Below, in pieces: positions 1,437 through 28,159 of a DNA stretch of 64,000 nucleotides. Made by a program: the position numbers and the translations under genes. This DNA comes from Allostella vacuolata. Its GTDB lineage: Bacteria > Pseudomonadota > Alphaproteobacteria > ATCC43930 > Allostellaceae. The DNA is taken from the NCBI GenBank assembly GCA_006739055.1, contig AP019702.1, positions 3,001,388 through 3,065,387 of the forward strand. The letters are read 5' to 3'. Below the pieces are notes generated by a model. The model was given only the letters and a program-made list of their open reading frames with translations. It was not told the origin of the DNA and did not search any database. Positions within the stretch are counted from its first letter, which is position 1; the number at the start of each line of letters is the position of its first letter.

Positions 1437-1547
1437 TCGCGAATGAAGCCGCCCGCAGACAGGACCAGAACACGCCAGCGCGAGCGAGAGGCACGGCTTG
1501 ATTCCAATGCGGCGGCCGGAGGCCTCGCCGCAAGCACGGAAGACCCC

Positions 1548-3041: not shown

Positions 3042-5128
3042 TGGAACAGCCGCGCGTCATCGGCCATGTGGTTGCGGTCAACGGGTTCCGGCTGAAGGTC
3101 GAACTCTCACCGGATGCCAAGTCATCCTCCCGCGCCACGCCGGACGGTGTCCAGCGCGCGGTCGCCATCAATGCCTATCTCACCTTCGATCTCGGCGCGG
3201 GAGCACACGCCATCGGCATCCTCAGCGACCTTGAGGCACGGGAGAGCTTCGATCCGACGCAGGACGAGGAGCTTTCGCTGCAACTGACCAAGCCGCGCCG
3301 CATTGCTTCGGTCCAGCTCCTCGGAACCGTCAGACAGTGGGCCAAAAATACCTGGAAGTTCGACACCGGCATCACCGTATTGCCGACCCTCGATACACCA
3401 GCCGAAGTGGCCAGTCCGGAGATCCTGTCTGGCATCTTCGCGCATCCGCCGCAGCGCAATCGCCCGCTTGGCTGGGGCGACAAGCCGTTCGACTACGCGC
3501 TGGAGATCGGCCACCAGACCGGCGACGAAAACACCAGGGTCAAGGCGTCGTTCAACGACTTATTTTCCCGCCCGCTCGCCGTCGTCGGCAATACCGGCTC
3601 CGGCAAGTCGTACACGGTGGCCAGCCTCATCAGGAGCGTTGTGGAGCACCGGGGGTTTGGTGCGGACGCGCAGGCCGACCCTCATATATTCATTCTGGAT
3701 ATCAACGGTGAGTACGCGAACGCCTTCCTGGCCCCGGAGAGGGCAAAGTACCAGCGCCAACCAAACCGGATTTACCTCAATGGGACGGAATTCTGCCTCC
3801 CGGCCTGGCTGATGAACGGGGAGGAAATCTGCGAGTGGCTTCAAGCCTCGGAAGCGACACAGGAACCTGTACTCAAAGACTGGTGGGCAATAGCAAAGTC
3901 CAACTCTCACAGTGAGCTATTCGACCCCCTGCAAACAGCGATAACAAGATTAGATGGTGCAATAAATTGGCTGGATGTTCGTCTGCCACGAAGCAGTTTC
4001 GATCTCCTCTTAGACCATGCATCTCAATATGTTAGAGACATTGATTGGAAGTTAATCAAGAGACTTCCGGTATGGACTACATCACGAGAGCCCGATTGGG
4101 CGAGAATAGTCAATGATATGGAAGTTCGGCAGCAACTTCTTTCCACTCGCGGCATTCTTCTGGAACGTATTTCAGATCGGCAGAATGAAGGAATAAACTT
4201 CGCCAAATCTGCGGATTCACCTCGGTTCGTCACCATGGCCGAGTTCCGAGACCCACGCCTCGTTGATCGCGCCACCGATCAGGAGGCTGGCAGGAGGATC
4301 GACCAGTATCTCACCACGCTGAAACTGCGGCTGCGGACGCGGCTCGACGACCGGCGCTGGCAATCGTTCTTCAGCTATGAGCAGCAGGGCATTCGCAGCT
4401 TCCAGGCCTGGATGGAGAGGCTCGGCATAGGTCGGAAATCCGGCCCGCGCGTCTCAGTCCTCGACTGCTCGATGCTCGCCTCGGAGGTCCTACCCTTCGC
4501 GTGCGCGCTCCTGGGGCGGCTCCTGCTGGAGGCGCGCGAGATGCTCCGTCCCGAAGAACGCAGTCGGTATCCGTGGGTGTTGGTGTTGGAGGAGGCGCAC
4601 AACTACGCCCGTCCGCCAGCGCGTGCGACCGAGGATCGCGGCGCCGCCCTCTCGCGCCGCGCATTCGAGCGCGTGGCCAAGGAGGGCCGGAAGTTCGGCC
4701 TGTCGCTTATCGTGGCCAGCCAGCGGCCGAGCGAGATCAGTCCCACGATCATCAGCCAGTGCGCCAATTTCTTTTCGCACCGCCTACAGAATCCCGACGA
4801 CATCGACCACTTCCGCCGGATCATCCCCAGGCAGGCCCAGCGGCTGCTCGACCAGGTCACGGTCCTCGCGGCCGGAGAGGCGATCGTCTTCGGAAGCGCG
4901 CTGCACGTCCCGGCGCGCGTGCAGATCAAGTTGCCCAAGCACGAACCATGGAGCGCCACGGCGGCGCCCTTCGTCGATTGGGCGACGGACCACGCTTTTC
5001 CGCTTGCCGATGTGGTCGAGAGCTGGGGATTGAGTGTCGCCGAGCATGCGGATGCGGCTGCGCCACCCGAAGGTGCGTCGGCGGCGTCGTCGGACGCTGA
5101 TGAACGCGACGACGAAATTCCGTTCTGA
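3041..5128 (+). CDS. HerA-type DNA translocase/ATPase (DUF87), partner of SIR2
   Basis: This 695-residue HerA/FtsK-superfamily ATPase has Walker A GNTGSGKS near residues 183-190, Walker B WVLVLEEAHN near 515 and the family motif ASQRPSEISP near 560, followed by an arginine-containing segment (FFSHRLQNPDD). HerA proteins form hexamers. In SIR2-HerA systems the ATPase assembles with the SIR2 subunits and controls their NADase. The first ~120 residues look like a HAS-barrel region. Translation is probably coupled to the SIR2 gene through the ATGA overlap. Codons from about 3,860 to 4,210 are visibly AT-richer than the rest of the gene, suggesting exchange of the central segment or a rapidly evolving insert. 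Confidence 0.88.
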   Translation: MEQPRVIGHVVAVNGFRLKVELSPDAKSSSRATPDGVQRAVAINAYLTFDLGAGAHAIGILSDLEARESFDPTQDEELSLQLTKPRRIASVQLLGTVRQWAKNTWKFDTGITVLPTLDTPAEVASPEILSGIFAHPPQRNRPLGWGDKPFDYALEIGHQTGDENTRVKASFNDLFSRPLAVVGNTGSGKSYTVASLIRSVVEHRGFGADAQADPHIFILDINGEYANAFLAPERAKYQRQPNRIYLNGTEFCLPAWLMNGEEICEWLQASEATQEPVLKDWWAIAKSNSHSELFDPLQTAITRLDGAINWLDVRLPRSSFDLLLDHASQYVRDIDWKLIKRLPVWTTSREPDWARIVNDMEVRQQLLSTRGILLERISDRQNEGINFAKSADSPRFVTMAEFRDPRLVDRATDQEAGRRIDQYLTTLKLRLRTRLDDRRWQSFFSYEQQGIRSFQAWMERLGIGRKSGPRVSVLDCSMLASEVLPFACALLGRLLLEAREMLRPEERSRYPWVLVLEEAHNYARPPARATEDRGAALSRRAFERVAKEGRKFGLSLIVASQRPSEISPTIISQCANFFSHRLQNPDDIDHFRRIIPRQAQRLLDQVTVLAAGEAIVFGSALHVPARVQIKLPKHEPWSATAAPFVDWATDHAFPLADVVESWGLSVAEHADAAAPPEGASAASSDADERDDEIPF

Positions 5129-5316
5129 CGGATCAAGGCTCATCAAAACCGGCTACAGGGTGCATCTGTTGCTTCAACCTGTCAGCCTCGACTTCTAGGG
5201 AATGATGGAACAGCTATCTTGATGAAGGCCGCCGTATGATATCAATGCGGCGTTCGTTCAGCCGATGCTGTGATTTCCCACGCTTCAAAATCCCGGGCGC
5301 GAATGAAATCTGGCAG

Positions 5317-6267
5317 TTACTGACGTTGATCGGTGATGAATCGATTTAGACGGATCAGGGCGTCAATGGCAGCGTCAGATGCGGAGGGTTCGCGCGCGTC
5401 ACTTGGCCAGGGGCTTTCCGGATCAATTAAGACCTTAACGATATAGCATAAGATTTCGGACGCGAAGCTGTCCTCGCGAAGTTGAAGAATGCTAATTACC
5501 GATGTCAATCTGGAGACGGCATCGGGGTGTGTTGGGCTGGTTCCGTGTGATATAAGCTCAAACTGAGTCAGCCAGAGAAGTCCACACATCACTCCTAACG
5601 CGCGTCGCTCGAGCGCTATCTCAGCAGAACTTGGTTGCGAACCGGCCGACCGCGAAATGGAAGGCGCAAACAGTCCTTTCATCCAGAGCGTCGCTTTGGC
5701 ATCTGCTTCAAGTTCTGCGCGTTTCTTGTCATCCGGAAGTGTATAGGTGACTGCGTGATGATTCAGAACAATGTGTGCAAGTTCGTGCCTAACAATCCAA
5801 CTTAGCGCATTTAAGAATAGAAAATTGCCCGAGCCATCTGGATCCGAACGAATTTGCGCGTCAGGCACTGGTGCCCATTCTACCCACCGATCAAATCGAT
5901 TTTTGGCAAGACGGACTGAAAGCGTGACCAGATCAATTCCTGTCTCCACGTCGCCGGTTACCGGTATTTCTGGCGGAGCACCATGCGGATCAGCGGCCCG
6001 TTGGGCTTCGAAACAGGGACGTCCGATCCGAATGACAGCTTGAGAAAATGCCCAAAGGCTCGCAATCCCGTTCCAGGTGATCCGCACGAAGGGTGCGGGC
6101 GCGCCGAAGGCAGCAAACTCGGCTTCGTAAGCTGCTTGGGCGTCCGATAGATCTTCGAGCCTAAGGGGGATCATCGTTGCGTCGACCGCAGCATCTTTGC
6201 AGGCGCTCGCATAGACCCGCTGAATGTCGGCGAAAAATGGGCAGAAAAGACGTCCCAGGACGCTCAT
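5317..6267 (-). CDS. HExxH zinc metallopeptidase, Lit-like (peptidase U49 type)
   Basis: This 316-residue soluble protein has a metalloprotease motif, HELAHIVLNHH, at residues 161-171 and a downstream acidic motif, ELEADAKATLW, near 185-195. Size, motif layout and an island full of defence genes fit the Lit/U49 peptidases. E. coli Lit cleaves EF-Tu during T4 infection and kills the host. The target here is unknown. The gene is transcribed against the SIR2-HerA pair and has lower GC than its neighbours, consistent with separate acquisition. Other HExxH island proteases are possible, so the Lit assignment is tentative while the zinc-protease call is firm. Confidence 0.6.
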   Translation of the reverse strand: MSVLGRLFCPFFADIQRVYASACKDAAVDATMIPLRLEDLSDAQAAYEAEFAAFGAPAPFVRITWNGIASLWAFSQAVIRIGRPCFEAQRAADPHGAPPEIPVTGDVETGIDLVTLSVRLAKNRFDRWVEWAPVPDAQIRSDPDGSGNFLFLNALSWIVRHELAHIVLNHHAVTYTLPDDKKRAELEADAKATLWMKGLFAPSISRSAGSQPSSAEIALERRALGVMCGLLWLTQFELISHGTSPTHPDAVSRLTSVISILQLREDSFASEILCYIVKVLIDPESPWPSDAREPSASDAAIDALIRLNRFITDQRQ

Positions 6268-6550: not shown

Positions 6551-6730
6551 GGGGGCCTCGCGACCCCCCGGCGGTCAAGGCCAAGCCCTTCGGGCGCCGG
6601 CGGGAGGTATCCCCGCCTTCCGCGGCTTCGCCTTGTGCAGGCGGGTGATGCCCCACCCCCCGCCGGCGGCCTTGACCGCCACCCCCCGCTCATTGGCGCG
6701 GGCCTAGCCCGGGTTGCAACAGCAACCCGG
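6551..6730. repeat. Nested inverted repeats in the ardC leader
   Basis: The 6268-6746 gap has no convincing gene. It contains GGGGG/CCCCC (6551-6568), an outer perfect 13-bp repeat GGCGGTCAAGGCC (6570-6582) with its complement at 6668-6680, an inner 10-bp repeat CGCCGGCGGG (6595-6604) with its complement at 6659-6668, and a tight hairpin CCGGGTTGC-AACA-GCAACCCGG (6709-6730). The last one ends 16 bp before the ardC start codon. The nested arms could form a large cruciform or a leader RNA structure controlling ardC, or mark a transfer-related site. Confidence 0.55.
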
Positions 6731-6746
6731 ATTAGGAAGAAAGCCA

Positions 6747-7637
6747 ATGAAAACCGATATCTACACCCGCATTACCGATCAGATCGTCGCCGACCTGGAG
6801 AAGGGCGTTCGGCCCTGGATGAAGCCGTGGAGCGGCGGGAATACCGAAGGGCGGATCGTCCGGCCGCTGCGCCATAACGGCGAGCCGTATCGCGGCATCA
6901 ACGTGCTGATGTTGTGGAGCGCGGCTATCGAGAAGTGCTATGCCGCGCCCTACTGGATGACCTTCCGCCAGGCGAAGGAGATGGGCGCGCATGTGAGGAA
7001 GGGCGAGCAGGGAACGCTCGTCGTCTATGCCGGCGCGATCACGAAGGTAGAGGCGGACGACGCGACCGGCGAGGAGGCGGAGCGGGAGATTCCGTTCCTC
7101 AAGGGCTACACCGTCTTCAACGTGCAGCAGATCGAGGGCTTGCCGGAGCGGTACTTTCCGGCGCCCGAGCCGACGTCACCGGCGCTGCCGCGGGTCGAGC
7201 GGGCGGAAAGCTTCTTTGCCGCGACCGGGGCCGACATACGCCACGGCGGGCACCGCGCGTTCTATGCGCCCGGGCCGGACTTCGTGCAGATGCCGCCCTT
7301 CGAGGCGTTCCGGGATGCGGACAGCTACTATGCGACGCTCGCGCACGAAGTGACGCACTGGACGTCGCACAAGAGCCGGCTGGATCGCAGCTTCGGGCGC
7401 AAGCGCTTCGGCGATGAAGGCTATGCGATGGAGGAGCTTGTTGCCGAGCTCGGCGCGGCGTTCCTGTCGGCCGACCTGGCGCTGACCCCGGAGGTGCGCG
7501 AGGACCATGCGGCCTATATCGGCTCCTGGCTCAAGGTGCTGAAGGGCGACAAGCGGGCCATCTTCACCGCCGCGAGCCATGCGCAGCGGGCGGCGGACTT
7601 TCTGCATGGGGCGCAGGCGGAAGAGATCGCGGCTTGA
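6747..7637 (+). CDS. ardC: Antirestriction protein ArdC
   Basis: This 296-residue protein begins MKTDIYTRITDQIVADLEKG, the ArdC N-terminal ssDNA-binding domain (about residues 1-125, including GINVLMLW and PYWMTFRQAKEMGA). It ends in a zincin-like domain with AHEVTHWTSH near residue 201 and EELVAELGAAF near 231. ArdC proteins protect incoming single-stranded plasmid DNA from restriction during conjugation, which fits the relaxase genes of this island. The ATG at 6747 follows AGGAAGAAAG. Upstream arms of complementary sequence suggest control at the leader. Confidence 0.92.
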   Translation: MKTDIYTRITDQIVADLEKGVRPWMKPWSGGNTEGRIVRPLRHNGEPYRGINVLMLWSAAIEKCYAAPYWMTFRQAKEMGAHVRKGEQGTLVVYAGAITKVEADDATGEEAEREIPFLKGYTVFNVQQIEGLPERYFPAPEPTSPALPRVERAESFFAATGADIRHGGHRAFYAPGPDFVQMPPFEAFRDADSYYATLAHEVTHWTSHKSRLDRSFGRKRFGDEGYAMEELVAELGAAFLSADLALTPEVREDHAAYIGSWLKVLKGDKRAIFTAASHAQRAADFLHGAQAEEIAA

Positions 7638-7672: not shown

Positions 7673-10282
7673 TCAGTTCGGCTTGATCACGACGCCGCCG
7701 TTGGACCCGGGATAATCCGCGTCGCCTGTATTGGCGGAGCTCGTCCCGGAACCTGCCGTGGTCGACCCGCCGGCAGGAACGAGGGCGCTGCCGCCACCGC
7801 CGCCGCCGCCGTGCCCACCTCTGTTATTATTACCGCCGTCGCCGCCACGGCCGCGCAGAAGTCCACCGCCGCCGCCGCCGCCGCCTCCACCGTAGTAGCT
7901 GCCGCTGCCGCAGTCCCCACTGTTGCCGTCGCCTCCATTGCCGTTCGCAACACCCTTCGATCCCCCGCCGCCGCCGCTTCCTCCATCTGAGTTACTGCCG
8001 CCGCTACTGTCACTGCCATTGGCGCCGATTGTGCCGCCGCCCGCGCCGCCTGCGCCGCCGCCGCCATTACCATCACCACACTCTTCGGTGCTCTCATCGC
8101 CGCCCCTCCCGCCGCCGCCAGCGGCAATCAGAAGATTGGTCACTCCTCGGCGTAGGCCGGATGCGCCGCCGCCATTGCCGCCGTCATCGGCGTTACCGCC
8201 GCGGCCCTCTCCGCCCTCTCCGCCATCCCAGACGCCACCACCCCGCACGATAACGGTCAGGGTTTCACCCGGGGTGACAGCCAGATTGCCGGTGGTGTAG
8301 CCGCCGCCGCCGTGAGCCTTCTGACCCCAAGCCTTGACGTTGATCGAGGTGACGCCGGCAGGAACGACGAAGCTGTGAGCGCCGGCATTGGTGAAGATCG
8401 CTGCGGCACCGGTGCTGACGCTCCAGTCCTCCGCATAGGTGCCGACCGTGACGGTGGCGACATGCGAGGTGCTGAAGGAACCGCTCGTCAGGCGAAGCTG
8501 CAGCCGTTGGTTGTTCTGGATCGTCGCCGGGCCGACCGTCCAGTTGGTCACGACCGAGGAACAGGTGGCGTTGCTGCAGATGCGGAACTCGGGGCTGCCC
8601 TGGCCGGTGATCGAGACGGTGACGTTGCCGTCGATGCCACTGATCTGGAGGATGTTCGAGGTCAGTAGGGTGCTGACCGCTTGGTTCGTCAGGTCGGTGA
8701 AGTTGAAGGCGTTCGGCGTGGTGTCTTGCCAGCCGGCGGCGGTGCCGGAGAGGTTGGCGACGGCGCTGATCGTTCCATCCGAAATGGTGAGGGTGCTGGC
8801 CAAGGCGCCATCCACGGTCGCCTTGGGCCGCACGTCGATGACACAGGTGTCGTCCTTCGCCAGCGTCTTGCCGGCGCAGTCATCCCCGACATAGCCGCCG
8901 CCGCTGTAGAACTCGAAATTGGTGACGTTGGACAGAATCGCGGAGAACAGCGTGGTTTCCATCTCGCCGGTGTTCTGGACGAGGAAGCTGACCGCACTGC
9001 CATAGGCCGGGGCGCCGGGACCGGTCACGTTCATGCCGGATTGCGGCGTGGGGGTGATGGTGAGGGCCGCCGGCGTCGCGTCGCGCGTGGTGATGAGCCA
9101 CGGCCGGACGATGGACCCGAGGGTGAGGGTATAGGTCCGGTCGGCTTCCGGGGTGGGTGCAGCGGTGCCCTTCACCGAGATCATGTCGCCGGCGGCGATG
9201 GACGCGGTTGCGCCGATCTCGACGCCGTTGACCAGGATGACCGCGCCGCCATCAACGCTCACCGTCCGGTTGCCGTTGAACCCGGCGAAGGAGATTTCGT
9301 TGGACGTGTGCTCGCTGCCGAGGACGGCGTTGGGGACGGGGTTGAAGTTGCCCGAAGCGGAGACGACCCCGCCGACCTCGACCCATCCCGTATCAGTGCA
9401 GACCTGCACCGTGCCCGTCTCAAAGCGCATGAGACCGATGGTCGAGGGTGTGCAGGCTTCGTCGGGATATGACTGCAACTGTTCGGAGCCGCCGCCGGCA
9501 AGGATTGCTTCGCCGTAGATCGCCGGCCGCACCACGTCGTCGCTGCCAAGCGGCTTGTCGATCAGCGGCACGTCGGGAGTATCATCGTCGTTGGCATCAA
9601 GCCAGGCATGGCAGGTGGTCTGGAACACCCGGTCGGGTCCGGAGCTGATGACTGCAACAACGGGCTGAGTCGAAAGATCGACGCCGCCGAGCCGCCGCGC
9701 ACTGCCGCCGCCGCAGTCGGCGACATCGTCGGATACGGTTTCGTCGCCGTGATCCCAGACGCAATAGCCGTACTCGTTTTTCCAGGGATCGGCCTTGGCC
9801 GCGCCGATCTGGAGGGGGATCAGGCCCCCTCCAGCCGGCGCTGTCCTGCCCGGGTCGGGGAGACGCCAGGGCAGGGGTTCAATGAAGCCGTCGCCGTCGC
9901 AATCGCCGTTCTGAGCCGTGCGGGCCTGAGCAACGAGGAGGAGAGAGGCCGCCATCATGTCGGCATCTGCCTCGTTGTGCAGGGTGACGTTGGTCATACC
10001 GCGCAGCGGCCCCTTGATATGGGACATGGTGGCGGAGCCGAGCAGGCCAACGACGGCGACCGCGCCGAATAGCATGAAGAAGATGTTGCCAGCGGTGGAC
10101 CGCTGCTTGTCCAAAAACGTTCGCAGCTTGTGCCAACGCAGCCAATGATAGGTAAGGTAGGCGCTCGGCACGATGATCGCGACGATGACGACGGACAGAT
10201 AAAGCACCGCTTGCTCGATCAGGAGAGGGCAGGTGCCGTCCAATAAGCAGTCGAAGAATTTTAAGTGCCTGTCCCGTTCCAT
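7673..10282 (-). CDS. Membrane-anchored surface protein with choice-of-anchor D-like and glycine-rich domains (paralog A)
   Basis: This ~869-residue protein has a hydrophobic segment near residues 14-38 (LYLSVVIVAIIVPSAY) and a second, pilin-like one near 62-83 (FFMLFGAVAVVGLLGSATM). An extracellular-looking region follows with NCDxD-like calcium-type sequence (NGDCDGDGFIEPLPW), a choice-of-anchor D-type beta domain (VQNTGEMETTLFSA, DDTCVIDVRP) and a C-terminal glycine-rich domain led by VVPAGVTSINVKAWG. It ends VVIKPN. The ATG at 10282 is preferred; a TTG at 10303 would overlap the upstream stop. It lies 17 bp behind paralog B and is probably co-transcribed. The exact role is unknown; adhesin or cell-contact is an inference. 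Confidence 0.7.
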   Translation of the reverse strand: MERDRHLKFFDCLLDGTCPLLIEQAVLYLSVVIVAIIVPSAYLTYHWLRWHKLRTFLDKQRSTAGNIFFMLFGAVAVVGLLGSATMSHIKGPLRGMTNVTLHNEADADMMAASLLLVAQARTAQNGDCDGDGFIEPLPWRLPDPGRTAPAGGGLIPLQIGAAKADPWKNEYGYCVWDHGDETVSDDVADCGGGSARRLGGVDLSTQPVVAVISSGPDRVFQTTCHAWLDANDDDTPDVPLIDKPLGSDDVVRPAIYGEAILAGGGSEQLQSYPDEACTPSTIGLMRFETGTVQVCTDTGWVEVGGVVSASGNFNPVPNAVLGSEHTSNEISFAGFNGNRTVSVDGGAVILVNGVEIGATASIAAGDMISVKGTAAPTPEADRTYTLTLGSIVRPWLITTRDATPAALTITPTPQSGMNVTGPGAPAYGSAVSFLVQNTGEMETTLFSAILSNVTNFEFYSGGGYVGDDCAGKTLAKDDTCVIDVRPKATVDGALASTLTISDGTISAVANLSGTAAGWQDTTPNAFNFTDLTNQAVSTLLTSNILQISGIDGNVTVSITGQGSPEFRICSNATCSSVVTNWTVGPATIQNNQRLQLRLTSGSFSTSHVATVTVGTYAEDWSVSTGAAAIFTNAGAHSFVVPAGVTSINVKAWGQKAHGGGGYTTGNLAVTPGETLTVIVRGGGVWDGGEGGEGRGGNADDGGNGGGASGLRRGVTNLLIAAGGGGRGGDESTEECGDGNGGGGAGGAGGGTIGANGSDSSGGSNSDGGSGGGGGSKGVANGNGGDGNSGDCGSGSYYGGGGGGGGGGLLRGRGGDGGNNNRGGHGGGGGGGSALVPAGGSTTAGSGTSSANTGDADYPGSNGGVVIKPN

Positions 10283-12780
10283 AAATGCTTGTCGCGCTCT
10301 CAATTCGGCTTGATCACGATACGGCCGGGCATTCCATCGTCGGAGCCGGAGACGCCGCCGCGTCCGGCATTTCCGCCATAGTCCCCGTCGCCGGTATTGC
10401 CGGCGCTGCTGCCACTTCCTGCCGTCGTTGAACCGCCGGCCGGAACAAGAGCGCTCCCGCCGCCGCCGCCAGCGCTGTCGCCCGAAGGGGTACCAGAACC
10501 CCCGGCGCCGCCCCCATAACGGCCACCACCGCCGCCGCCGCCGCCGCTATTACCGAGCCCAGTGTGAGAGTTTCCGCCCTGCAAGTAGGAGCCAGCTTCG
10601 GCACTCCCGCCGCCGCCGCCGCCGCCCGAACTTTGGGTCGCCCCCCCGCCCTGCATGTTGTCACCCGATGGGTCCGTACCATTAGCGCCAGAGTTTCCGC
10701 CGCCAGCGCCGCCAATGCCGACATACATAGAATGACGTCCGCCACCGCCGCCGCCGCCAGGTGCGATCAGGAGTACGGTGGAGTTGCGCTTCAGTCCGCT
10801 CGCACCGCCGCCGCCGCCGTGCCGGGCACTGTAGGCATTACCTCCCGTCCCACCCGGCGCGATCTCCGATGATCCAGCGGTGCGCGCGGGTGAACCGCCG
10901 CCGCCAACAACCACCCGCAGCGTTTCTCCTGGCGTAACGGCAAGAACGCCCGTGACATACCCACCGCCGCCGCCGTTCCCGCCGCTGTTGCTGCCCCTAC
11001 CGCCGCCGGCTCCCCATACTTTCACTCGAATAGTGGTGAGGTCAGCTGGGACGACGACATCGTATGCGCCGGCGCCGGCAAAGATCGCTGTTGTGCCGGT
11101 GCTGACGCTCCAATTCTCACTGAAGGTGCCGACTGTGACGGTCGCCACATACGAGGTGCTGAATGAGCCGCTTGTCAGACGCAGCTGGAGCCGTTGGTTG
11201 TTTTGAATGGTCGCCGGGCCGGCCGTCCAGTCGGTCACGACCGTTGAGCAGGTGGCGTTGCTGCAAACGCGGAATTCGGGGCTGCCCTGGCCGGTGATCG
11301 AGACGGAGACATTGCCGTCAACACCGCTGATCTGAAGGATGTTCGAGGGTAGCAAGGTACCAATCAGCTGGTTCGTCAGGTCGGTGAAGTTGAACGCGTT
11401 CGGCGTCGTGTCCTGCCAGCCGGCGGCGGTGCCGGAGAGGTTGGCGACAGCGTTGATTGTTCCGTCCGCGACAGTGAGGGTACTGCTCAACGCGCCATCG
11501 ACGGTCGCCTTGGGCCGCACGTCGATGACGCAGGTATCGTCCTTCGCGAGCGTCTTGCCTGCGCAATCGTCCCCGACATAGCCGCCGCCGCTGTAGAACT
11601 CGAAATTGGTGACGTTGGACAGAACCGCTGAGAACAGCGTGGTTTCCATCTCGCCGGTGTTCTGGACGACGAAGCTGACGACATCGCCATAGGTCGGGGC
11701 GCCGGGGCCGGTCACGTTCATGCCGGACGAGGTGGTCGGCGTGATAGTGAGGGCCGCCGGCGTCGAATCGCGGGTCGTGACGATCCAAGGCCGCGCAATG
11801 GCGCCCAGGGTCAGGGTGAAGGTCTGGTCGGTTTCCGGGGTGGGCGCAGCGGTACCCTTCACCGAGATCATGTCGCCGGCGGCAATGGACGCGGTGGCGC
11901 CGATCTCGACGCCGTTGACCAGGATAGCCGCGCCGTTATCAACGGAAACGGTGCGCGTCCCATTAAAGCCCGCGAAGGAAATTTCATTGGAGGTGTGCTC
12001 GCTGCCGAGCACGGCACTGGTGACCGGATCGAAATTGCCTGAGGCGGACACGACACCGCCGACCTCGACCCAACCCGTGTCGCTACAGACCTGCACCGTG
12101 CCCATCTCAAAGCGCATGAGGCCGATGGCAGCAGGGGTGCAGGCTTGGTCGGGATAGGATTGGAGTTGTCCCGAGCCGCCGCCGGCAAGGATCGCCTCCC
12201 CATAGACCGCCAGCCGCACCAAGTCGTCGCTGCCGTCCGGTTTTTCGATCAGCGGCACATCCGGAATATCGTCGTCGTTGGCATCGAGCCAGGCATGGCA
12301 GGTGGTTTGGAACACCCTATCGGGGCCGGAGCTGATGATGGCAATGACGGGTTGGGTCGGGAGATCGACACCACTGAGCCGGCGCGCGCCGCTGCCGCCG
12401 CAGTCGGCGACATCGTCGGACACGGTCTTGTCACCGTGATCCCAGACGCAATAACCGTAGTCGTTCTTCCAAGGGTCCGATTTCGCTGCCCCCACCTGCA
12501 TTGGGATCAAGCCTCCGCCGGAAGGGGCAGGTTGGCTGGCAATCGGTTCACGCCATGGCAGTGGCTCAATTGAGCCGTCGCTGTCGCAATCGCCGGTTTG
12601 TGAGTTGCGGGCATGGCTGACCAGAAGCTGCGAGGCAGCCATCAGGTCGGTGCTGGCCACGTTTCGCTGCGTCACCGTGGCCATGCTGCGTGTTGGACCC
12701 TTGATATTGCTCATCACCGCAGAGCCGAGCAAACCGACGACGGCGACCGCGCCAAACAGCATGAAGAAGACGTTTCCCGC
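8390..12780. repeat. Two ~1.7-kb direct repeats from gene duplication
   Basis: Roughly 8,390-10,085 and 11,070-12,780 align along their length with scattered, mostly synonymous differences, and in the same orientation. They encode the shared core of the two glycine-rich paralogs. The flanking N- and C-terminal coding parts do not align well. Recombination between the copies would delete one gene or create a chimera joining the N-terminus of one to the tip of the other. Confidence 0.75.
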
Positions 12781-13032
12781 TTCGGGGCGCGGCTTGTCCG
12801 CAGATGGCGGGAGCTTGCGGGCGAAGGACTGGATGGGCGGCTCTTGCGGCGCGTCCGGCAGCGGCGGGGTCGGGCGTCTCGGCCAGCACATCCAGATATA
12901 GGCAAGGCAAACGCCGAGCAGGACGCTCGACAGGATGATCGCCGACAGATAGAGCGCTGTCTGCCCGGCCAATGAAGCGCATATCTCGTCGTTCAGACAG
13001 TCCCGTAGTTGCGATCGCCAGTCTTGTTCCAT
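10300..13032 (-). CDS. Membrane-anchored surface protein with choice-of-anchor D-like and glycine-rich domains (paralog B)
   Basis: This 910-residue protein has the same architecture as its downstream neighbour: a membrane segment near residues 24-48, a proline-rich linker, a pilin-like segment near 87-107 (FFMLFGAVAVVGLLGSAVM), then the beta-rich middle and a glycine-rich end (VVPADLTTIRVKVWG, ending IVIKPN). The middle ~560 residues are nearly the same as in paralog A. The first ~60 residues and the glycine-rich tails differ strongly. It is the first gene of a leftward pair, with an AT-rich promoter region upstream that carries an inverted repeat next to a serine recombinase. The function is not known. 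Confidence 0.7.
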   Translation of the reverse strand: MEQDWRSQLRDCLNDEICASLAGQTALYLSAIILSSVLLGVCLAYIWMCWPRRPTPPLPDAPQEPPIQSFARKLPPSADKPRPEAGNVFFMLFGAVAVVGLLGSAVMSNIKGPTRSMATVTQRNVASTDLMAASQLLVSHARNSQTGDCDSDGSIEPLPWREPIASQPAPSGGGLIPMQVGAAKSDPWKNDYGYCVWDHGDKTVSDDVADCGGSGARRLSGVDLPTQPVIAIISSGPDRVFQTTCHAWLDANDDDIPDVPLIEKPDGSDDLVRLAVYGEAILAGGGSGQLQSYPDQACTPAAIGLMRFEMGTVQVCSDTGWVEVGGVVSASGNFDPVTSAVLGSEHTSNEISFAGFNGTRTVSVDNGAAILVNGVEIGATASIAAGDMISVKGTAAPTPETDQTFTLTLGAIARPWIVTTRDSTPAALTITPTTSSGMNVTGPGAPTYGDVVSFVVQNTGEMETTLFSAVLSNVTNFEFYSGGGYVGDDCAGKTLAKDDTCVIDVRPKATVDGALSSTLTVADGTINAVANLSGTAAGWQDTTPNAFNFTDLTNQLIGTLLPSNILQISGVDGNVSVSITGQGSPEFRVCSNATCSTVVTDWTAGPATIQNNQRLQLRLTSGSFSTSYVATVTVGTFSENWSVSTGTTAIFAGAGAYDVVVPADLTTIRVKVWGAGGGRGSNSGGNGGGGGYVTGVLAVTPGETLRVVVGGGGSPARTAGSSEIAPGGTGGNAYSARHGGGGGASGLKRNSTVLLIAPGGGGGGGRHSMYVGIGGAGGGNSGANGTDPSGDNMQGGGATQSSGGGGGGGSAEAGSYLQGGNSHTGLGNSGGGGGGGGRYGGGAGGSGTPSGDSAGGGGGSALVPAGGSTTAGSGSSAGNTGDGDYGGNAGRGGVSGSDDGMPGRIVIKPN

Positions 13033-13046
13033 GAATACCTAAGAAT

Positions 13047-13204
13047 AATGGTTCCTTTTTGCCAGTGTTAATTATGCTCGATAAATGCTTACTGAAAAGA
13101 TAATTCGTCTGCGGATTCGGTGATCTGTGGATATTTTATTGCTTCCCCTATTGCTGCCTCGTTCGGAAATTGCGCGCGCTGCGCAGATGCGAAAGGGAAC
13201 CATT
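13047..13204. repeat. Inverted repeat flanking the promoter region of the paralog pair
   Basis: AATGGTTCCTTTT at 13047-13059 and AAAGGGAACCATT at 13192-13204 are inverted copies (12 of 13 matching). They bracket the AT-rich DNA between the leftward paralog B start (13032) and the rightward recombinase start (13287). Such a layout could let a recombinase invert the promoter segment, or could be a pair of operator sites. Confidence 0.45.
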
Positions 13205-13286
13205 TCAAGCGGTTCTCCACAGGATTTCAATACGTTAATCGGCCCGGAGCTGGAAGCGAGTGCCGCTCCGGCGCAGGATAGTGCGG

Positions 13287-13847
13287 ATGAAAATCGGCTA
13301 TGCACGGGTATCGACGGAAGAACAGAACCTGGACCTTCAACGCGAAGCCCTGCAAAACGCCGGCTGCGCTGAAATATTCGAAGACAAAGTGTCCGGCGCG
13401 CGCCGGGTAGTGCGGACAGGGTTGGCCGCTGCCGTGAACCGCTGCGGAAAGGGCGATGTCCTGGTGGCATGGAAGCTGGACCGCCTCGGGCGCAGCCTGT
13501 TCGACCTTGTCGAGTTGGCCGAGACGCTGACGGCGAAAGGCGCCGGGATGAAGGTGCTGACCGGGCAGGGGGCCAGCATCGACACGACGCGGGCCGAGGG
13601 CCGTCTGATCTTCGGCATATTCGCCGCGCTGGCGGAGTTCGAGCGGGAACTGATCCGCGAACGCACGAAGGCGGGGATGGCGGCGGCCCGGCGGCGCGGC
13701 GTCAAGTTCGGGCGACCGGCGAAGCTTACCCCCCACCAGCTCGCCCACGCGCGCAGCCTCATCGATCGCGGTGAGGAAACCCGGGCCAGCGCCGCTGTGC
13801 TGCTTGGCGTCGATGTTTCGACGCTGAGAAGGGCGCTTCGAAGATGA
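13287..13847 (+). CDS. Serine recombinase (resolvase/invertase family)
   Basis: This 186-residue protein begins MKIGYARVSTEEQNLDLQ with the catalytic serine in RVST (residue 10). It carries DRLGRSLFDLVELAETL, the E-helix FAALAEFERELIRERTKAG and a C-terminal helix-turn-helix (SAAVLLGVDVSTLRRAL). That is the full-length small-serine-recombinase layout of Tn3 resolvases and Hin/Gin invertases. It catalyses strand exchange through a 5'-phosphoserine link. The ATG at 13287 matches the family start. It faces a second recombinase with a 6-bp gap between stops. Its substrate could be the adjacent inverted repeat, or element resolution; this is inference. Confidence 0.93.
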   Translation: MKIGYARVSTEEQNLDLQREALQNAGCAEIFEDKVSGARRVVRTGLAAAVNRCGKGDVLVAWKLDRLGRSLFDLVELAETLTAKGAGMKVLTGQGASIDTTRAEGRLIFGIFAALAEFERELIRERTKAGMAAARRRGVKFGRPAKLTPHQLAHARSLIDRGEETRASAAVLLGVDVSTLRRALRR

Positions 13848-13853
13848 TCCGTG

Positions 13854-14420
13854 TCAGCGGCTACGGGCTTCGGCTCGCCGCATCGACCGGGTCAATGTCC
13901 AGGGCGCGATACCCAGCTCTTTGGCAACGCTGGTGATCGTCACATCGGCCTGTGCCAGCCGCAGGTTGGCATAGGCCAACTGATCGGCATCCAGCTTTGG
14001 CGGTCGGCCGAGCCTGGCGCCTCGCAGCCGGGCCGCCGCCAGTCCTTCGCGCGTCCGTTGGGCCAGCGTGCGCCGCTCGAACTCCGCGAAGGCGCTCATC
14101 ACCGTATAGACAAGCATCCCGGCCGGGCTGGTGGTGTCCACCTGAAGGTTGGCGATCTGAAGATCGACCCCGCGCGAGCGCAGGCGATCGATCTCCGTCA
14201 GGGCGTCGATGACCGACCGGAAGGCGCGATCCAGATCCCAGACGACCAGGGCGTCGCCCGGCGTGAGAAGGGCCAGCACCTCCTCGTAGACGGGCCGCCG
14301 TCGGCTGACGGCGGATAGGCGTTCAATATGGAGTTCGTCGCAGAGCGGCTCCATGCCGACGATCTGTCGGTCGGGCCGTTGCTCGATCGTCGAGACTCGC
14401 AGGTATCCAATCTTCCTCAT
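13854..14420 (-). CDS. Second serine recombinase (resolvase/invertase family)
   Basis: This 188-residue protein begins MRKIGYLRVSTIEQRPDRQ with the nucleophile serine at residue 10. It shows VVWDLDRAFRSVIDALTEIDRL, the helix MSAFAEFERRTLAQRTREGL, the linker ARLGRPPKLDADQL and a C-terminal helix-turn-helix (SVAKELGIAPWTLTRSM). It is clearly different from the convergent neighbour, so this is not a recent duplication. Two recombinases may act on different sites (resolution versus inversion). The ATG at 14420 gives the standard N-terminus. Confidence 0.92.
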   Translation of the reverse strand: MRKIGYLRVSTIEQRPDRQIVGMEPLCDELHIERLSAVSRRRPVYEEVLALLTPGDALVVWDLDRAFRSVIDALTEIDRLRSRGVDLQIANLQVDTTSPAGMLVYTVMSAFAEFERRTLAQRTREGLAAARLRGARLGRPPKLDADQLAYANLRLAQADVTITSVAKELGIAPWTLTRSMRRAEARSR

Positions 14421-14589
14421 TAAATCAGTAGCTTATTACCTTTCTCGCCGTTCCCGGCGTTCAACACAATCGACCCTTTCCGTGAGTCTCCGGGCGGACG
14501 GGTTTGGCGCATCCCAACGATGATGCCGGACCGCCGTCTGCCAATGGTTATGCCTATAGTATGCCATGTTTCGTAAACAATATGGAAAT

Positions 14590-14617
14590 TTCAACAATAA
14601 TGGTCGTTAATGTTGAA
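14590..14617 (+). promoter_or_regulatory. Inverted repeat over the start codon of the small exported protein
   Basis: TTCAACA (14590-14596) and TGTTGAA (14611-14617) are perfectly complementary, and the start codon at 14610-14612 lies in the right arm. As RNA this could hide the start codon; as DNA it could be an operator. It sits in the AT-rich divergent region 14421-14609, which also has TGTTT-CGT-AAACA near 14569. Confidence 0.4.
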
Positions 14618-14969
14618 GAGGAATGGCCGATATGGCCGGGTATTTCCCTTGATATCGGGGGTCGCAGGAGCCGCCATGATTGTTATGGCCGGACCGGGCG
14701 CATCGGCGCAGGAGATGACCGCCGGCGTCGTCATGGAGAGAATGCCCGTGCCCGAGCGCGTTGCCTTCATCGCCGGGATCGTCGAGGGGCTGGCTTATGC
14801 CCGGTATGCTGCCGATAATAAGCAGACTGCCGGCATGGGCTGCATCTACCAGTGGTTTTACGGCAAGCGGGGGCGCAGCCTCGACGTCGAGCAGGCATTC
14901 ACGAGGTTCAAGGATCATATGCCCGGCACCATCGTGGCGGCCATGGTGGCGAAGGAGTGCGGGAAGTAG
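14610..14969 (+). CDS. Small exported protein, Rap1a/Tai-like in size and layout
   Basis: This 119-residue protein has an N-terminal signal peptide: positive residues (KRNGRYGR), a hydrophobic stretch to about residue 32 and an AQE-type cleavage region. The mature ~85 residues contain IAGIVEGLAYARYAADN, two cysteines (GMGCIYQW and AKECGK) and an acidic helix. The layout resembles the secreted Rap1a/Tai-type small proteins that bind effectors or serve as immunity proteins, but similarity is weak and no function is assigned. The next gene begins directly after its stop, so the two are likely one operon. Confidence 0.6.
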   Translation: MLKRNGRYGRVFPLISGVAGAAMIVMAGPGASAQEMTAGVVMERMPVPERVAFIAGIVEGLAYARYAADNKQTAGMGCIYQWFYGKRGRSLDVEQAFTRFKDHMPGTIVAAMVAKECGK

Positions 14970-15850: not shown

Positions 15851-17287
15851 ATGTTGGAGATAGCCGAAAAAGACGTCCTGCAAAGCCTGCAGCGTGACAA
15901 CCCGTGGTGGGAGTCGGGAGCGCCCACGGCCGGTGCCAGCTTCCAGCACGTCCGGGCTTATTTCCCCGGCTTTCGAACCCTGGCGCTGTCATGGGGCGTC
16001 CGGCGCGCCGTCATCCTCATGGGACCTCGCCGTGTCGGCAAGACGGTCATGCTGGAGCAGCTGGTCGGAGAGGCCATCAAGTCCGGGTTTCCGCCCAAGG
16101 CGATCCTCTTCGCATCCATCGATACGCCGCTCTATAGCGGCATGCCGCTGGAGCGGCTGATAGCCCTCTTCGAGAAGCAGAGCGGGCACGACCCGGCGGC
16201 GCGCCGGATCGTCATCTTCGATGAGATCCAGTACCTGAAAAATTGGGAAATCCACCTGAAGGTGCTGACCGACAGATATCCAAATACCCGGTTCATCGCC
16301 TCGGGATCGGCAGCGGCGGCACTGCGCCTGAAGAGCCAGGAGTCTGGTGCCGGCCGCTTTACCGACTTCTTCCTGCCTCCCCTGACCTTCGCCGAGTTCC
16401 TCGATTTCCGTGGCCTGGAAAAAAGCCTGATCGAGGCGGAACCGGAAGGGCGGTCACGGCGCTTTCGGACACCCGATATCGAAGCTCTCAATCGCGCGTT
16501 TGTGGATTACCTGAACTTCGGCGGCTATCCCGAGGCCGTGTTGAACCCGGAAATCCAGCGGAACGTGCAGCGCTATCTCGGCCGCGACATCGTGGACAAG
16601 GTGCTGCTGCGCGATCTGCCGAGCCTTTACGGCATCCAGGACATTCAGGAGCTCAACCGTCTGTTCACGACGATCGCCTATCACTCGGGCCAGGAGATCA
16701 GTCTGGAAGCCCTGGCTTCCAGCTCCGGCGTCGCCAAGAACACGATCTCGCGCTACCTCGAATATCTGGAGGCGGCGTTCCTCATCGTGCGGGTCCGGCG
16801 TGTCGACGACAGCGGCCGTACCTTCCAGCGGATGCGGCAATTCAAGGTTTATCTGACCAACCCGTCGATGCGTGCCGCGCTCTTCGCGCCTTTGACCGAA
16901 GACCATGAAGCCATGGGCAACATGGCCGAGACGGCGATATTCAGTCAGTGGTTCCATTCCGATCAGCTCGCCAACATCCACTATGCCCGCTGGAAGTCCG
17001 GACGGCAGGAGCGCGAAGTCGACTTGGTGCACGTCGATCCGGCAACCCTGCGGCCAGCTTGGGCGTACGAGGTCAAATGGTCCGATCGCTTCGTCGATCA
17101 CCCGAGCGAGTTGAAAGGCCTTATCGAATTCGCGAAGAGAAACTTGGCCCATCCGGTGCCCGCGGGAGCGTCGACCCGTACGAAGTCCGCGGAGACAATC
17201 GTCGACGGCGTGACCGTGCGGCATTTCCCGTGCGCGCTGCACTGCTATCAGATCGGCCGCAATGTGATCGAGGGGCGGCCCGCCTAA
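15851..17287 (+). CDS. AAA ATPase with DUF4143 domain
   Basis: This 478-residue protein belongs to the DUF4143 family of P-loop ATPases. Walker A is MGPRRVGKTVMLEQL near residues 56-70 and Walker B is RRIVIFDEIQYLKNWE near 118-133. A helix-turn-helix-like segment (ASSSGVAKNTISRYLEYLE) lies near 295 and the DUF4143 part follows. The end carries a PD-(D/E)xK-like pattern: REVDLVHVD near 390 and AYEVKWSDR near 406. These proteins are widespread and mostly uncharacterised. The gene is followed by a SIR2 gene 106 bp downstream in the same direction, so a shared defence role is possible but unproven. Confidence 0.85.
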   Translation: MLEIAEKDVLQSLQRDNPWWESGAPTAGASFQHVRAYFPGFRTLALSWGVRRAVILMGPRRVGKTVMLEQLVGEAIKSGFPPKAILFASIDTPLYSGMPLERLIALFEKQSGHDPAARRIVIFDEIQYLKNWEIHLKVLTDRYPNTRFIASGSAAAALRLKSQESGAGRFTDFFLPPLTFAEFLDFRGLEKSLIEAEPEGRSRRFRTPDIEALNRAFVDYLNFGGYPEAVLNPEIQRNVQRYLGRDIVDKVLLRDLPSLYGIQDIQELNRLFTTIAYHSGQEISLEALASSSGVAKNTISRYLEYLEAAFLIVRVRRVDDSGRTFQRMRQFKVYLTNPSMRAALFAPLTEDHEAMGNMAETAIFSQWFHSDQLANIHYARWKSGRQEREVDLVHVDPATLRPAWAYEVKWSDRFVDHPSELKGLIEFAKRNLAHPVPAGASTRTKSAETIVDGVTVRHFPCALHCYQIGRNVIEGRPA

Positions 17288-17393
17288 TGCCGATCGCCAA
17301 CCGGTTCTCGCAGACAGGCATGGCAGCGGACGCCGCGGCGACATCTCCGGCCCCGACATGCCACTTACATCGACCCCTGGCGGCACGACGCAG

Positions 17394-19163
17394 ATGATCC
17401 ACGATCCCGACACCCAACTGGCTTTTGCCCTCCATGAGAACAAGGGCGTGTTCGCGCTCTTGCTTGGTTCCGGCCTGTCCCGCGCCGCCGCCATCCCGAC
17501 CGGCTGGGAGATCACGCTGGATCTCATCCGACGCGTCGGCCTCGCCCAGGGCGCGGGCGAGCAGGCTGATTGGGCGGAATGGTACCGGGCCAAGACTGGG
17601 ACGGAGCCCAGCTATTCCCGTCTGCTGGAAGAGCTGACCTTGGTGCCAGCCGAACGCCGCTCGATCCTGCATAGTTATATCGAGCCAAGCGACGATGACC
17701 GGGAGGCGGGGCGCAAGTCGCCGACGAAAGCGCACTTCGCCATCGCCGATCTGGTGCGCGCCGGCTACGTGCGCGTTATCGTGACCACCAACTTCGATCG
17801 CCTGATGGAGAACGCGCTGCGGGACCGCGGCGTCGAGCCGACTGTAGTCGCGTCCCCCGACGCTTTGGCCGGAGCGGAGCCGCCGGTCCACAGCGCCTGC
17901 TACCTGCTCAAGCTGCACGGCGACTACAAGGACGCCCGCATCCTCAATACGGATGCTGAACTGGAAACCTACCCCACCGCCTATAACCAGCTTCTCGATC
18001 GCATCATGGATGAGTACGGATTGATCGTTGCTGGCTGGTCCGGCGAGTGGGATCACGCGCTTCGCGCAGTATTCGAGCGTGCACCAAATCGCCGGTACCC
18101 CGTCTATTGGGCGGCACGCGGAGACCTCGGAGCGAAGGCCCAAGAACTCACTGCACATCGGCGCGCCCGTGTCGTTCCTATCGACGACGCTGATGCATTC
18201 TTCCACGGGCTTTGGGAGCGTACCCAGACGCTGGCGGCGAGCCGAAAGCAGAATCCATTGAGCGTCGAGCTGCTGGTCGCCAGCGTAAAGCGGTACCTGG
18301 CGAAACCGGAACATCGCATCCAACTCGCCGAACTATTCGACGACGAGGTTCGCCGCCTCTTCGAGAAACTCAATACGCCCGAGCTCAATCCGCGAGGCTC
18401 CTGGCGCCCGGACGAGTTTCGCGCCCGCGTCGCCCTTTACGAGGCAGCCACCGAACCGCTCGCGAAAATGATCGGAGCGCTCGGCCGTTGGGGTGACGGC
18501 AGCGATCTGCCGATCGTTCTGGACGTTCTGAAGGCGATCATCGCGCATGCAGTCCGGGAGGGCGGTGGCCTGAACGTGTGGTTACACCTCCGGACCTACC
18601 CGGCCGTCCTTGCTTTTACCGCCTATGGCTTGGGTCTCACGCGAGCAGAACGCTGGAAGGTGCTCCACGTTTTCCTATCTGCGCATCTGGCACGAGAGGA
18701 TCGAGAGCCGAAGAGGGTGGTCGAAACGGTGTTCCTTTGGGCATGGAAAGGCTGGGACAACGACGTTTGGCGACATAGCGAAGGCTTGGATCGCCACAAG
18801 ACCGCTCTGAGTGACCATCTCTGCCGATTGTTTGCGGAGTGGGGCGACAGCTTTCTCGGTCTCACTTCCGGGGATGAACTTTTATTCGAGCGCTTCGAAG
18901 TGCTCGCCTCCCTTGGCCACCTGAATGCCACAGATGAATCCGAGTTGGAGCCAGCCGCAACAATGCCTGGATCGAGCGGCAAGATTTGGATGCCGGTTGG
19001 CAGGGCGGGATGGGATTCGCAGAATTGGTCGATCCTCGTCAGTGAACTGGCTGCTCCAGAGTTTCGCAGCGCTATTGTGCGGGCTGGCTTGGCTCCGAGC
19101 GAGCGATACATTGACCTCTTCCGGATGAATTTCGAGAAAATTGCCTCACAAATGCGTTGGTAA
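17394..19163 (+). CDS. Second SIR2-domain protein, candidate NADase defence effector
   Basis: This ~589-residue protein has an N-terminal SIR2 domain: LLGSGLSRAAAIPTGWE near residues 22-38, VTTNFDRLME near 130, LLKLHGDYKD near 172 (putative catalytic His) and AGWSGEWDHAL near 213. A ~330-residue helical C-terminal part follows with no motif I recognise. SIR2 effectors of this layout hydrolyse NAD+ when infection is sensed. It is not closely similar to the SIR2 protein at 1548 and has no HerA next to it; its nearest partner is the upstream DUF4143 ATPase. The ATG at 17394 is preferred over an in-frame ATG at 17358 because the domain begins soon after it. Confidence 0.82.
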   Translation: MIHDPDTQLAFALHENKGVFALLLGSGLSRAAAIPTGWEITLDLIRRVGLAQGAGEQADWAEWYRAKTGTEPSYSRLLEELTLVPAERRSILHSYIEPSDDDREAGRKSPTKAHFAIADLVRAGYVRVIVTTNFDRLMENALRDRGVEPTVVASPDALAGAEPPVHSACYLLKLHGDYKDARILNTDAELETYPTAYNQLLDRIMDEYGLIVAGWSGEWDHALRAVFERAPNRRYPVYWAARGDLGAKAQELTAHRRARVVPIDDADAFFHGLWERTQTLAASRKQNPLSVELLVASVKRYLAKPEHRIQLAELFDDEVRRLFEKLNTPELNPRGSWRPDEFRARVALYEAATEPLAKMIGALGRWGDGSDLPIVLDVLKAIIAHAVREGGGLNVWLHLRTYPAVLAFTAYGLGLTRAERWKVLHVFLSAHLAREDREPKRVVETVFLWAWKGWDNDVWRHSEGLDRHKTALSDHLCRLFAEWGDSFLGLTSGDELLFERFEVLASLGHLNATDESELEPAATMPGSSGKIWMPVGRAGWDSQNWSILVSELAAPEFRSAIVRAGLAPSERYIDLFRMNFEKIASQMRW

Positions 19164-19300: not shown

Positions 19301-20593
19301 CTATTGCGGCCCCTGCGCAGGGGCTTGACGTTGACGTCTTCTACGCACTCGCTCTGGCGGATTGGGCAGTGGGGGCTCTGGTGGCCCCATGGTCAGGTAG
19401 GTGCCGATCTCCAGGTTCAGGCGGCCGGTCTCGACGGTGTGGATACGGCGCGCCTGCCGGATCTCGTGCTGGAGCCGTCGGCGTTCGGCCAGCTGCTGCT
19501 CGATCAGCGCCTGCTTCTCGGCGCGGTCGCGCTTGTCGGCGAGGGCGGCTTCCTGCGCGTTCTGCTCCCGGATTTTTTTGTTGCGGCCGGTGACCCAGTC
19601 CCAGAGGCCGAGCAGCCCCTTGCGCAGGCGACCCGCGCGCTGGCGGCTTTCGAGGACGATGCGGGTTTGCTGGACGGCTTTCAGGTCCTGCCGGGCCGCT
19701 CGCTGCCGCTGGACGAGTTGGACGCGCTTGGCTTCCATCGCGGCCTTCCGCTCGGCGAACTCGGCATCCGCTGCCGCGATGTGTGCTCGCAGCTTTGCCG
19801 TCATGCGCGACGCCAGGTCTGCCTTCATCTGCTCGACGGTCGGCAAGTCCTGCGGGTCGCCGAGCCGGGCGGCGATCTCCTTCGGCTTGATGGCGAGCCA
19901 GCGGGAGAGGGAATAGACCTCGCCTTTGTAATCGATCACCACGAAGCCGCGGCGGTCGCCCTGGGCGAGGTAGTAGCCCTTGGCGGCGAGGGCATTGGCG
20001 AAGGCGGCACGGGAGTCGGAGACCGACCAGCATTCCTGGAGCAGCGCCTTCTGCGCCTTGGGGTCGACCTTGGCCCGGCGCGCCTGCTGCCATTCCTGCC
20101 GGGTGAAGTTGAACGGGTCGCGATTGCGGCTGTCGGCCAGGCCCGCCGGCATCCGCCAGCCATGCTCCAGGTAGAGCTGCCGGGACAGGTCGTGCAGCTT
20201 GCGCTTGAAGTGCGGCAGGTGGACCGCGCGCATGGTTTGTGCGTCGATCCTGGACCAGACGCAGTGCGCATGGCGCCGTCCTTCCTTCTCATGGAAGACG
20301 ATGGCGCGCGGCTGGCCGGTCAGGCCGAGCCGCTCCTCGATCGTGTCGATGGCCGCCTCGAACGCTTCGACAGGGACATTCTCCGTCTCGGGCGGGTTGA
20401 GGCTGAGGGAGAAGAGGAACTGCCGGCACTTCGTGCCACGGCTGACGGCATAGGCTTCGTGGAAGGCGCCGTTCAGGTCGTCGGCGACGAAGCCGCGCAG
20501 TTCGTGGACTTCGACATGGTCGTTCTCATCCATGCGAAGCAGGTGGACGGCAAGCTGCTTGCCGCCCGCGCGCTGGCTGGCCTTGAGGATCAT
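19301..20593 (-). CDS. VirD2/MobA-type relaxase (mobilization nuclease)
   Basis: This 430-residue relaxase nicks oriT and pilots the transferred strand. The N-terminal domain has KASQRAGGKQLAVHLLR, SLNPPE near residue 66 and the metal-binding HUH motif EGRRHAHCVWSRID near 104-117. The rest is a long basic helical region, and the C-terminus is Arg/Pro rich, as expected for a protein recognised by a type IV coupling protein. Its start overlaps the mobC stop by ATGA. No type IV secretion genes are in the window, so the element is probably mobilizable rather than self-transmissible, unless they lie to the left. Confidence 0.88.
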   Translation of the reverse strand: MILKASQRAGGKQLAVHLLRMDENDHVEVHELRGFVADDLNGAFHEAYAVSRGTKCRQFLFSLSLNPPETENVPVEAFEAAIDTIEERLGLTGQPRAIVFHEKEGRRHAHCVWSRIDAQTMRAVHLPHFKRKLHDLSRQLYLEHGWRMPAGLADSRNRDPFNFTRQEWQQARRAKVDPKAQKALLQECWSVSDSRAAFANALAAKGYYLAQGDRRGFVVIDYKGEVYSLSRWLAIKPKEIAARLGDPQDLPTVEQMKADLASRMTAKLRAHIAAADAEFAERKAAMEAKRVQLVQRQRAARQDLKAVQQTRIVLESRQRAGRLRKGLLGLWDWVTGRNKKIREQNAQEAALADKRDRAEKQALIEQQLAERRRLQHEIRQARRIHTVETGRLNLEIGTYLTMGPPEPPLPNPPERVRRRRQRQAPAQGPQ

Positions 20594-28117: not shown

Positions 28118-28159
28118 CCCGGGACCTCGTTGCGGCGCGCTTCGAAAGCGTCGGAATGC

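Follow-up and report, generated by a model that had tools for sequence, protein, structure and literature searches.

Site-specific DNA inversion by small serine recombinases is the closest described parallel to the locus considered here, which lies in a 64,000-nucleotide stretch of Allostella vacuolata DNA (GenBank assembly GCA_006739055.1, contig AP019702.1, forward strand, positions 3,001,388 to 3,065,387; hereafter the window), within a 5.83 Mb single-contig genome (G000). In the window, a serine recombinase gene (recombinase 1) and two inverted crossover-like sites probably make up a self-contained switch that controls expression by inversion and is carried on a mobile island; judged from sequence, the recombinase would invert 132 bases in front of two tandem genes, paralogs B and A. 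Serine invertases cut at the central dinucleotide between two half-sites, and productive recombination needs these dinucleotides to agree; the hix sites are laid out in this way, that is, as inverted crossover sites with matching central dinucleotides. The Hin gene is located within its own invertible segment, and the segments of Gin and Hin are about 1 to 3 kb long. Like the phage Mu G segment (Gin) and the Salmonella flagellar switch (Hin), the window has a recombinase of the same family and two inverted crossover-like sites with an identical central dinucleotide, but its recombinase gene stands outside the segment, and the segment is only 132 bases long.

Phase variation through DNA inversion is known above all from pathogens and gut bacteria. 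The Mpi recombinase of Bacteroides acts on many distant sites; the invertons of Bacteroides and other gut bacteria resemble the present locus in the short segment between inverted repeats, whereas here the switch has its own adjoining recombinase, the hosts and the site sequence are different, and the inversion is a prediction from the sequence. In Clostridioides difficile, the switches of pdcB and pdcC are comparable with the EAL-domain loci of Agrobacterium, Paraburkholderia and two viral contigs described below, but they are inverted by RecV, a tyrosine recombinase. Invertons have been described as short segments between inverted repeats, often near surface-related genes (PMC11892184), and invertible elements upstream of the cyclic di-GMP (c-di-GMP) phosphodiesterases pdcB and pdcC have been reported (PMC9286219). 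A read-based survey reports inversions in none of its four alphaproteobacterial samples (PMC5903667). A literature search, whose coverage mostly excluded subscription journals, found no paper joining invertons with alphaproteobacteria, and none of the titles and abstract openings among the matches listed describes the site family presented here.

First of all, a sequence-only reading of this DNA had pointed to a 12/13 inverted repeat between the paralogs and the recombinases, and the repeat is indeed there (Table 1). It is the sole repeat of such quality in the 256-base intergenic region (48% guanine plus cytosine, GC), and its right-hand site lies 94 bases ahead of the ATG of recombinase 1. 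Dinucleotide-preserving shuffles produced an equally good repeat in 0 of 60 cases in one run and in 9 of 1000 in another, so the repeat of the window is, by itself, weak evidence. Ninety-nine related genomes were searched, including three others of the window's genus, and it is the copy in the sister genome G002 that makes the repeat solid: both arms form a perfect 13/13 repeat there (equalled by 1 of 1000 shuffles), located between a single paralog copy and the same recombinase pair, and the bases between the arms have diverged from those of the window more than the arms themselves. In the window, each site retains its central dinucleotide and each recombinase its full reading frame, and the region 12900-14700 has no Rfam match at E up to 1. 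The arms look like the crossover sites of the adjacent recombinase 1.

Recombinase 1 has a resolvase catalytic domain and a C-terminal helix-turn-helix region (its HTH_7 match is below the cut-off), and it is nearest to DNA invertases. Its PHROG match is a DNA invertase, and among solved structures it comes closest to the DNA-invertase chains 4m6f (181 residues aligned) and 3uj3, both of which we take to be Gin. Against the Mpi family model it scores 61 of 272 bits, far below the cut-off; the XisF model scores higher and is also below its cut-off. As a query against G000, recombinase 1 matched nothing but itself and recombinase 2. The two genes had been recognised as convergent serine recombinases in the sequence-only reading, which agrees with their PF00239 matches, and 6 bases separate their ends. 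In the window a second recombinase stands next to that of the switch, as it does in at least 6 of the 13 other loci listed, G002 included (some flanks are short).

The evidence that carries the proposed switch comes from the stretches upstream of related recombinases, of which at most 300 bases were inspected. Relatives of recombinase 1 were drawn from whole genomes, named genome contigs, viral contigs and plasmids as the best-scoring 80 of 580, the best-scoring 80 of 203 and at most 30 from each of two further searches, plus 12 hand-picked plasmid regions (4 of 25 listed and 8 of 60 listed). Repeat-gene loci (L023, L024, L037, L049, L256, L269 and L270) were excluded, as were 9 of 259 genes with less than 220 bases upstream and identical stretches, the last step reducing 250 to 238. 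A site pair was defined as two AAGGG-NN-CCCTT-like sites separated by 80-200 bases, neither with more than two mismatches over its ten half-site bases. Such pairs are present in 14 of the 238 distinct upstream stretches, while shuffled stretches gave a mean of 0.47 per round (30 rounds). The central dinucleotide was not used in choosing the 14 loci. Ten loci have a single best register, and in every one of them the two centres agree in inverted orientation; in the remaining four the registers are tied, and the inverted one is among the ties beside at least one that is not inverted. Among unambiguous pairs in shuffled stretches, 0 of 12 had inverted matching centres, and permuting the partners gave 10/10 in 3 of 200,000 trials. 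The centres vary by locus (TT/AA, AA/TT, AC/GT, AG/CT, GA/TC and GT/AC), and seven of the ten loci have their right-hand site 91-102 bases ahead of the aligned start of the recombinase. Since the window and G002 are orthologs, the independent loci number at most nine.

The half-site pattern was derived from loci already seen (G176 and G267). The window, G002, G176, G267, L080 and L245 first surfaced in scans that used the dinucleotide, and G070 was noticed by eye; L125, L168, L187 and L274 first came to light in scans made without it. When the exact two-site pattern was searched in 385 genomes of the class, only G176 and G267 were returned, both at such recombinases and both previously known from a draw of the same size, and the reversed-pattern control gave zero matches. 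The exact pattern had no match in viral contigs, where the loci have mismatched half-sites. Moreover, a viral contig met after the count in a search for near copies of another locus (L283, the one new contig of three returned) supplied a fifteenth pair, with TT/AA centres at -251 and -101, which obeys the inverted-match rule. In a tree of 151 sequences (150 rows and recombinase 2, genes with stops or below 150 residues being excluded), loci with the pair are clustered, 0 of 500 shuffles being as low.

The switch would operate as its family suggests. Recombinase 1, a Gin/Hin-like serine invertase, would pair the two inverted sites before paralog B, cut at the central dinucleotides and rejoin the ends with the 132-base segment reversed. 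If, as we infer, the segment holds a promoter and flips at the present day, its reversal would turn transcription of B and A on or off, and expression of A would follow that of B, because A starts inside the end of B.

Several observations weigh against this proposal. Related recombinases mostly lack a site pair (224 of 238), several plasmid relatives resemble ordinary plasmid recombinases, and accounting for the pair on the tree takes 10 changes, of which well-supported branches force 7, so the site pair is easily gained or lost. No locus was seen in both orientations, with one assembly each for G000 and G002: comparing related strains for orientation, a check that the sequence-only reading had suggested, shows these two genomes sharing one orientation. 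Searches of plasmid DNA with the Agrobacterium and Paraburkholderia loci gave no other record covering 80% of the query, the viral contigs had no near-identical relative, the best other identity being 62-63% and that of L286 32%, and segments compared across the 14 loci had no clear reversed homology. In G002, the paralog (L012:10347-12976) is broken into two frames where it is glycine-rich, close to a GAGGGG run, by a real frameshift or an assembly error. As for the promoters, two promoter-like sequences face paralog B, one of them wholly inside the segment; in a second scoring, the two directions are nearly tied in the window (5.80 vs 5.75), and across the 14 loci three point to the target gene, four to the recombinase and seven are even. 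At G176, two of three promoter-like sequences face the target, the sole one at G267 faces the recombinase, and none was found at G070 in the first scoring. Since the promoter scores point both ways, neither an on-state nor the promoter being what flips is claimed. A terminator-like hairpin is also located inside the putative segment (plus strand, 13107-13132; 0.3 expected from shuffles). The suggestion that the locus resembles a DNA-inversion switch of surface structures is borne out in part: comparison supports the inversion idea well, the arms behaving as crossover sites with matching centres, but a single orientation is seen, the promoter polarity is tied and the surface location is putative.

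It is unlikely, but to be weighed first among the alternatives, that the recombinases are plasmid-type resolvases of the island, whose arms are half-sites of a res region repressing the divergent genes, with no inversion. res sites often lie in divergent promoter regions, as the arms do here, and plasmid relatives adjoin partition and toxin-antitoxin genes or an antitoxin gene and, read by eye, show one site rather than two. A plasmid multimer resolvase would have a single crossover site with accessory sites, whereas two inverted sites are present in the window, and mere binding needs no matching centre, which is nevertheless found in all ten unambiguous loci. Rather less probable still is that the repeat is a regulator's operator, or a decayed switch that no longer recombines in G000. 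One arm of the window is mismatched and that of G002 is not, the second repeat described below is degenerate (15/19 against 16/17 in G002), and one orientation is seen in both genomes; nevertheless, the intact dinucleotides and recombinase frames noted above speak against it, and such pairs exist elsewhere with many different centres. That A and B vary antigenically by homologous recombination which swaps their N-termini and glycine-rich ends, the recombinases being incidental, is very improbable: their mosaic with G002 and the 1.77-kb direct repeats would suit it, but they are too dissimilar (see below), G002 has a single copy, and the site pairs would be left unexplained.

The invertible switch remains the preferred reading, and what stands behind the paired sites elsewhere extends it. 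Large exported proteins follow the sites in the window, G002, G070 (L052:7358-8389) and G176 (a contig-end open reading frame, ORF), the ORFs of G070 and G176 having signal-peptide-like starts when read by eye. EAL proteins (PF00563) stand directly behind the sites on a Paraburkholderia plasmid (L274:1038-3040) and on the viral contigs L168 and L187, and on Agrobacterium pAt1 (L276) a short hypothetical gene precedes the EAL gene 3996-5543; these four are probably c-di-GMP switches. Distant relatives of the small exported protein of the window (14610-14969) are found behind the sites in G267 and in a Hyphomicrobiales metagenome-assembled genome (L080). By eye, the ORF behind the pair of L283 resembles a fusion of the 14610 and 14970 families, and that of Kordiimonas (L091) is lipoprotein-like. 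This assignment of genes leaves out L093, L125 and L245. It is conceivable, and we hold it tentatively at somewhat less than even confidence, that these loci form a family of switch cassettes on proteobacterial mobile elements, each made of a small serine invertase and an 80-135-base segment with a locus-specific centre before genes for large exported, EAL or small exported proteins; two such cassettes, with different recombinases and different sites, would lie tail to tail in the window and give four expression states.

The second of these would be served by recombinase 2. A second inverted repeat, absent from the sequence-only reading, lies between recombinase 2 and the divergent gene 14610-14969. 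Repeats as good arose in 5 of 1000 shuffles in the window and 0 of 1000 in G002, the arm lengths having been chosen after the repeats were seen. The distant homologs of gene 14610 behind paired sites elsewhere support a second switch, while the second recombinase of G176 has no 11/12 inverted repeat upstream. Because the second repeat departs from the AAGGG type and, among the loci fetched, G002 alone has a recombinase closely related to recombinase 2, this switch is less certain than the first. Recombinase 2 and this less well preserved repeat probably act on gene 14610 as recombinase 1 would on B and A, giving two switches back to back. The small exported protein has 22-26% identity outside G002 in a five-member alignment, with shared cysteines and a CGK end; the partner protein has 25-27% outside G002 in a four-member alignment, and in the other mobile elements compared it is encoded close to the small exported protein. 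On the Methylocystis parvus plasmids L271 and L272 (6001-6264), a relative of the small exported protein has an IS6 transposase in its vicinity, and apart from that transposase the genes listed there include no recombinase.

The two tandem paralogs that the sequence-only reading had reported do lie on the minus strand, and their differing N-termini (the first 70-85 residues or so) and glycine-rich ends are seen in the alignment of A and B. Their common core is less alike than the 'nearly identical' of that reading: 84% identity across 566 residues. Its DNA agrees in 82.2% of 1774 aligned columns; uninterrupted matches of 30 bases or more number four, and the longest has 55 bases. Frequent programmed exchange between A and B is unlikely at this identity and with such a longest run. 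A, B and the G002 copy form a mosaic, B being closer to G002 in columns 101-200 and 301-500 and A in most others; the proposed chimeras through the direct repeats therefore have a mosaic that points to past recombination on their side and the only 82% identity against them. A and B are probably co-transcribed, as the start of A overlaps the end of B. We infer that both are large membrane-anchored glycine-rich proteins exposed on the cell surface. The tail of B matches Gly_rich_2 (Pfam PF21722, E 1.1e-07), A has no Pfam match at E up to 1, and AlphaFold2 predictions of both have a mean predicted local distance difference test score of 32.8, so the core fold is not interpretable.

Parts of the core were found in 7 other genomes (289 of the class searched). 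In G177, three tandem very large ORFs (L266:12400 to L267:17742) have an N-terminal domain resembling the A/B core, with LVIVD repeats in the first and, by eye, RCC1-like repeats in the third; no pilus gene stands out among the ORFs listed beside them. On a Rhodoferax plasmid, a protein that resembles part of the core (L018:9878-13900) is located after a secretion/pilus gene cluster of type II/IV, with a glycine-rich stretch following it when read by eye. This is also the hint that the locus shares with the PilV shufflon of R64-type plasmids, which is alike in its variable C-terminal ends on a constant core; it differs in that the recombinase here is of the serine type, not the tyrosine type, and that the switch stands before the gene, not in its end. 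The Rci-type tyrosine recombinase and 3′ recombination repeats of a shufflon are lacking, the 3′ repeats being glycine-codon repeats by eye, and no pilus genes were recognised beside A and B. Prompted by the Rhodoferax homolog, a type IV pilin or PilV reading of A and B was tried and dropped: prepilin peptidase (PF01478) has no match in G000 and matches in 12 of 14 control genomes, which makes pilus assembly unlikely.

Finally, the setting. The switch region looks like part of a mobilisable island, because the first 20 kb of the window are poorer in GC (58-67% vs 66-74% beyond 22 kb) and carry ArdC, relaxase, NikA-like and SIR2-like genes. A possible defence-type cargo on the same island (1443-5128 and 15851-19163) comprises two SIR2-like proteins, a HerA-like ATPase and an AAA_14/DUF4143 protein. 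The relaxase block 19382-20967 has 95% identity to G002, against about 83% for the switch region, which makes the island a mosaic of different ages. A short ORF at the GC step (21073-21495) matches the C-terminal end of a pyrroloquinoline quinone (PQQ) beta-propeller; the step there may be the island's edge, and the ORF perhaps a gene severed by insertion. In addition, a tRNA-Asp (28160-28236) overlaps the start of the ORF 28130-28870, a match to NADH dehydrogenase chain 3, so the start of that ORF is likely wrong.

Table 1. Features of the switch region and its surroundings in the window.
Feature	Position	Strand	Remarks
ArdC	6714-7637		
Paralog A, 876 amino acids	7673-10303	-	ORF; N-terminal membrane segments (by eye), common core, glycine-rich end
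Paralog B, 910 amino acids	10300-13032	-	ORF; build as A; Gly_rich_2 tail; first gene past the putative switch
Left arm AATGGTTCCTTTT	13047-13059	+	Crossover-like site AATGG-TT-CCTTT at 13047-13058
Putative invertible segment, 132 bases between 13-base arms	13060-13191	.	Repeat and comparison with 13 other loci
Promoter-like TTTTCA-16-CATAAT	13071-13098	-	Faces paralog B; wholly inside the segment; counterpart in G002
Right arm AAAGGGAACCATT	13192-13204	+	Crossover-like site AAGGG-AA-CCATT at 13193-13204
Serine recombinase 1 (switch recombinase)	13260-13847	+	PF00239, E 8.8e-44; likelier start ATG 13287
Serine recombinase 2	13854-14420	-	PF00239, E 1.3e-34; 38% identity to recombinase 1
Second repeat, left arm	14460-14478	+	15/19 here, 16/17 in G002
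Second repeat, right arm	14599-14617	+	Overlaps the start codon of gene 14610
Small exported protein, 119 amino acids	14610-14969	+	Distant homologs adjoin paired-site recombinases elsewhere
Partner protein, 252 amino acids	14970-15728	+	Stretch LPDGR common to relatives
MobA/VirD2-like relaxase and NikA-like protein	19301-21030		

If the reading is true, a switch on a conjugative or mobilisable element would let the element itself diversify the population of its host in surface or c-di-GMP traits. The matching central dinucleotides provide a simple sequence rule for finding further switches, and if differing centres keep sites from cross-reacting, these recombinases would be a set of orthogonal small invertases.

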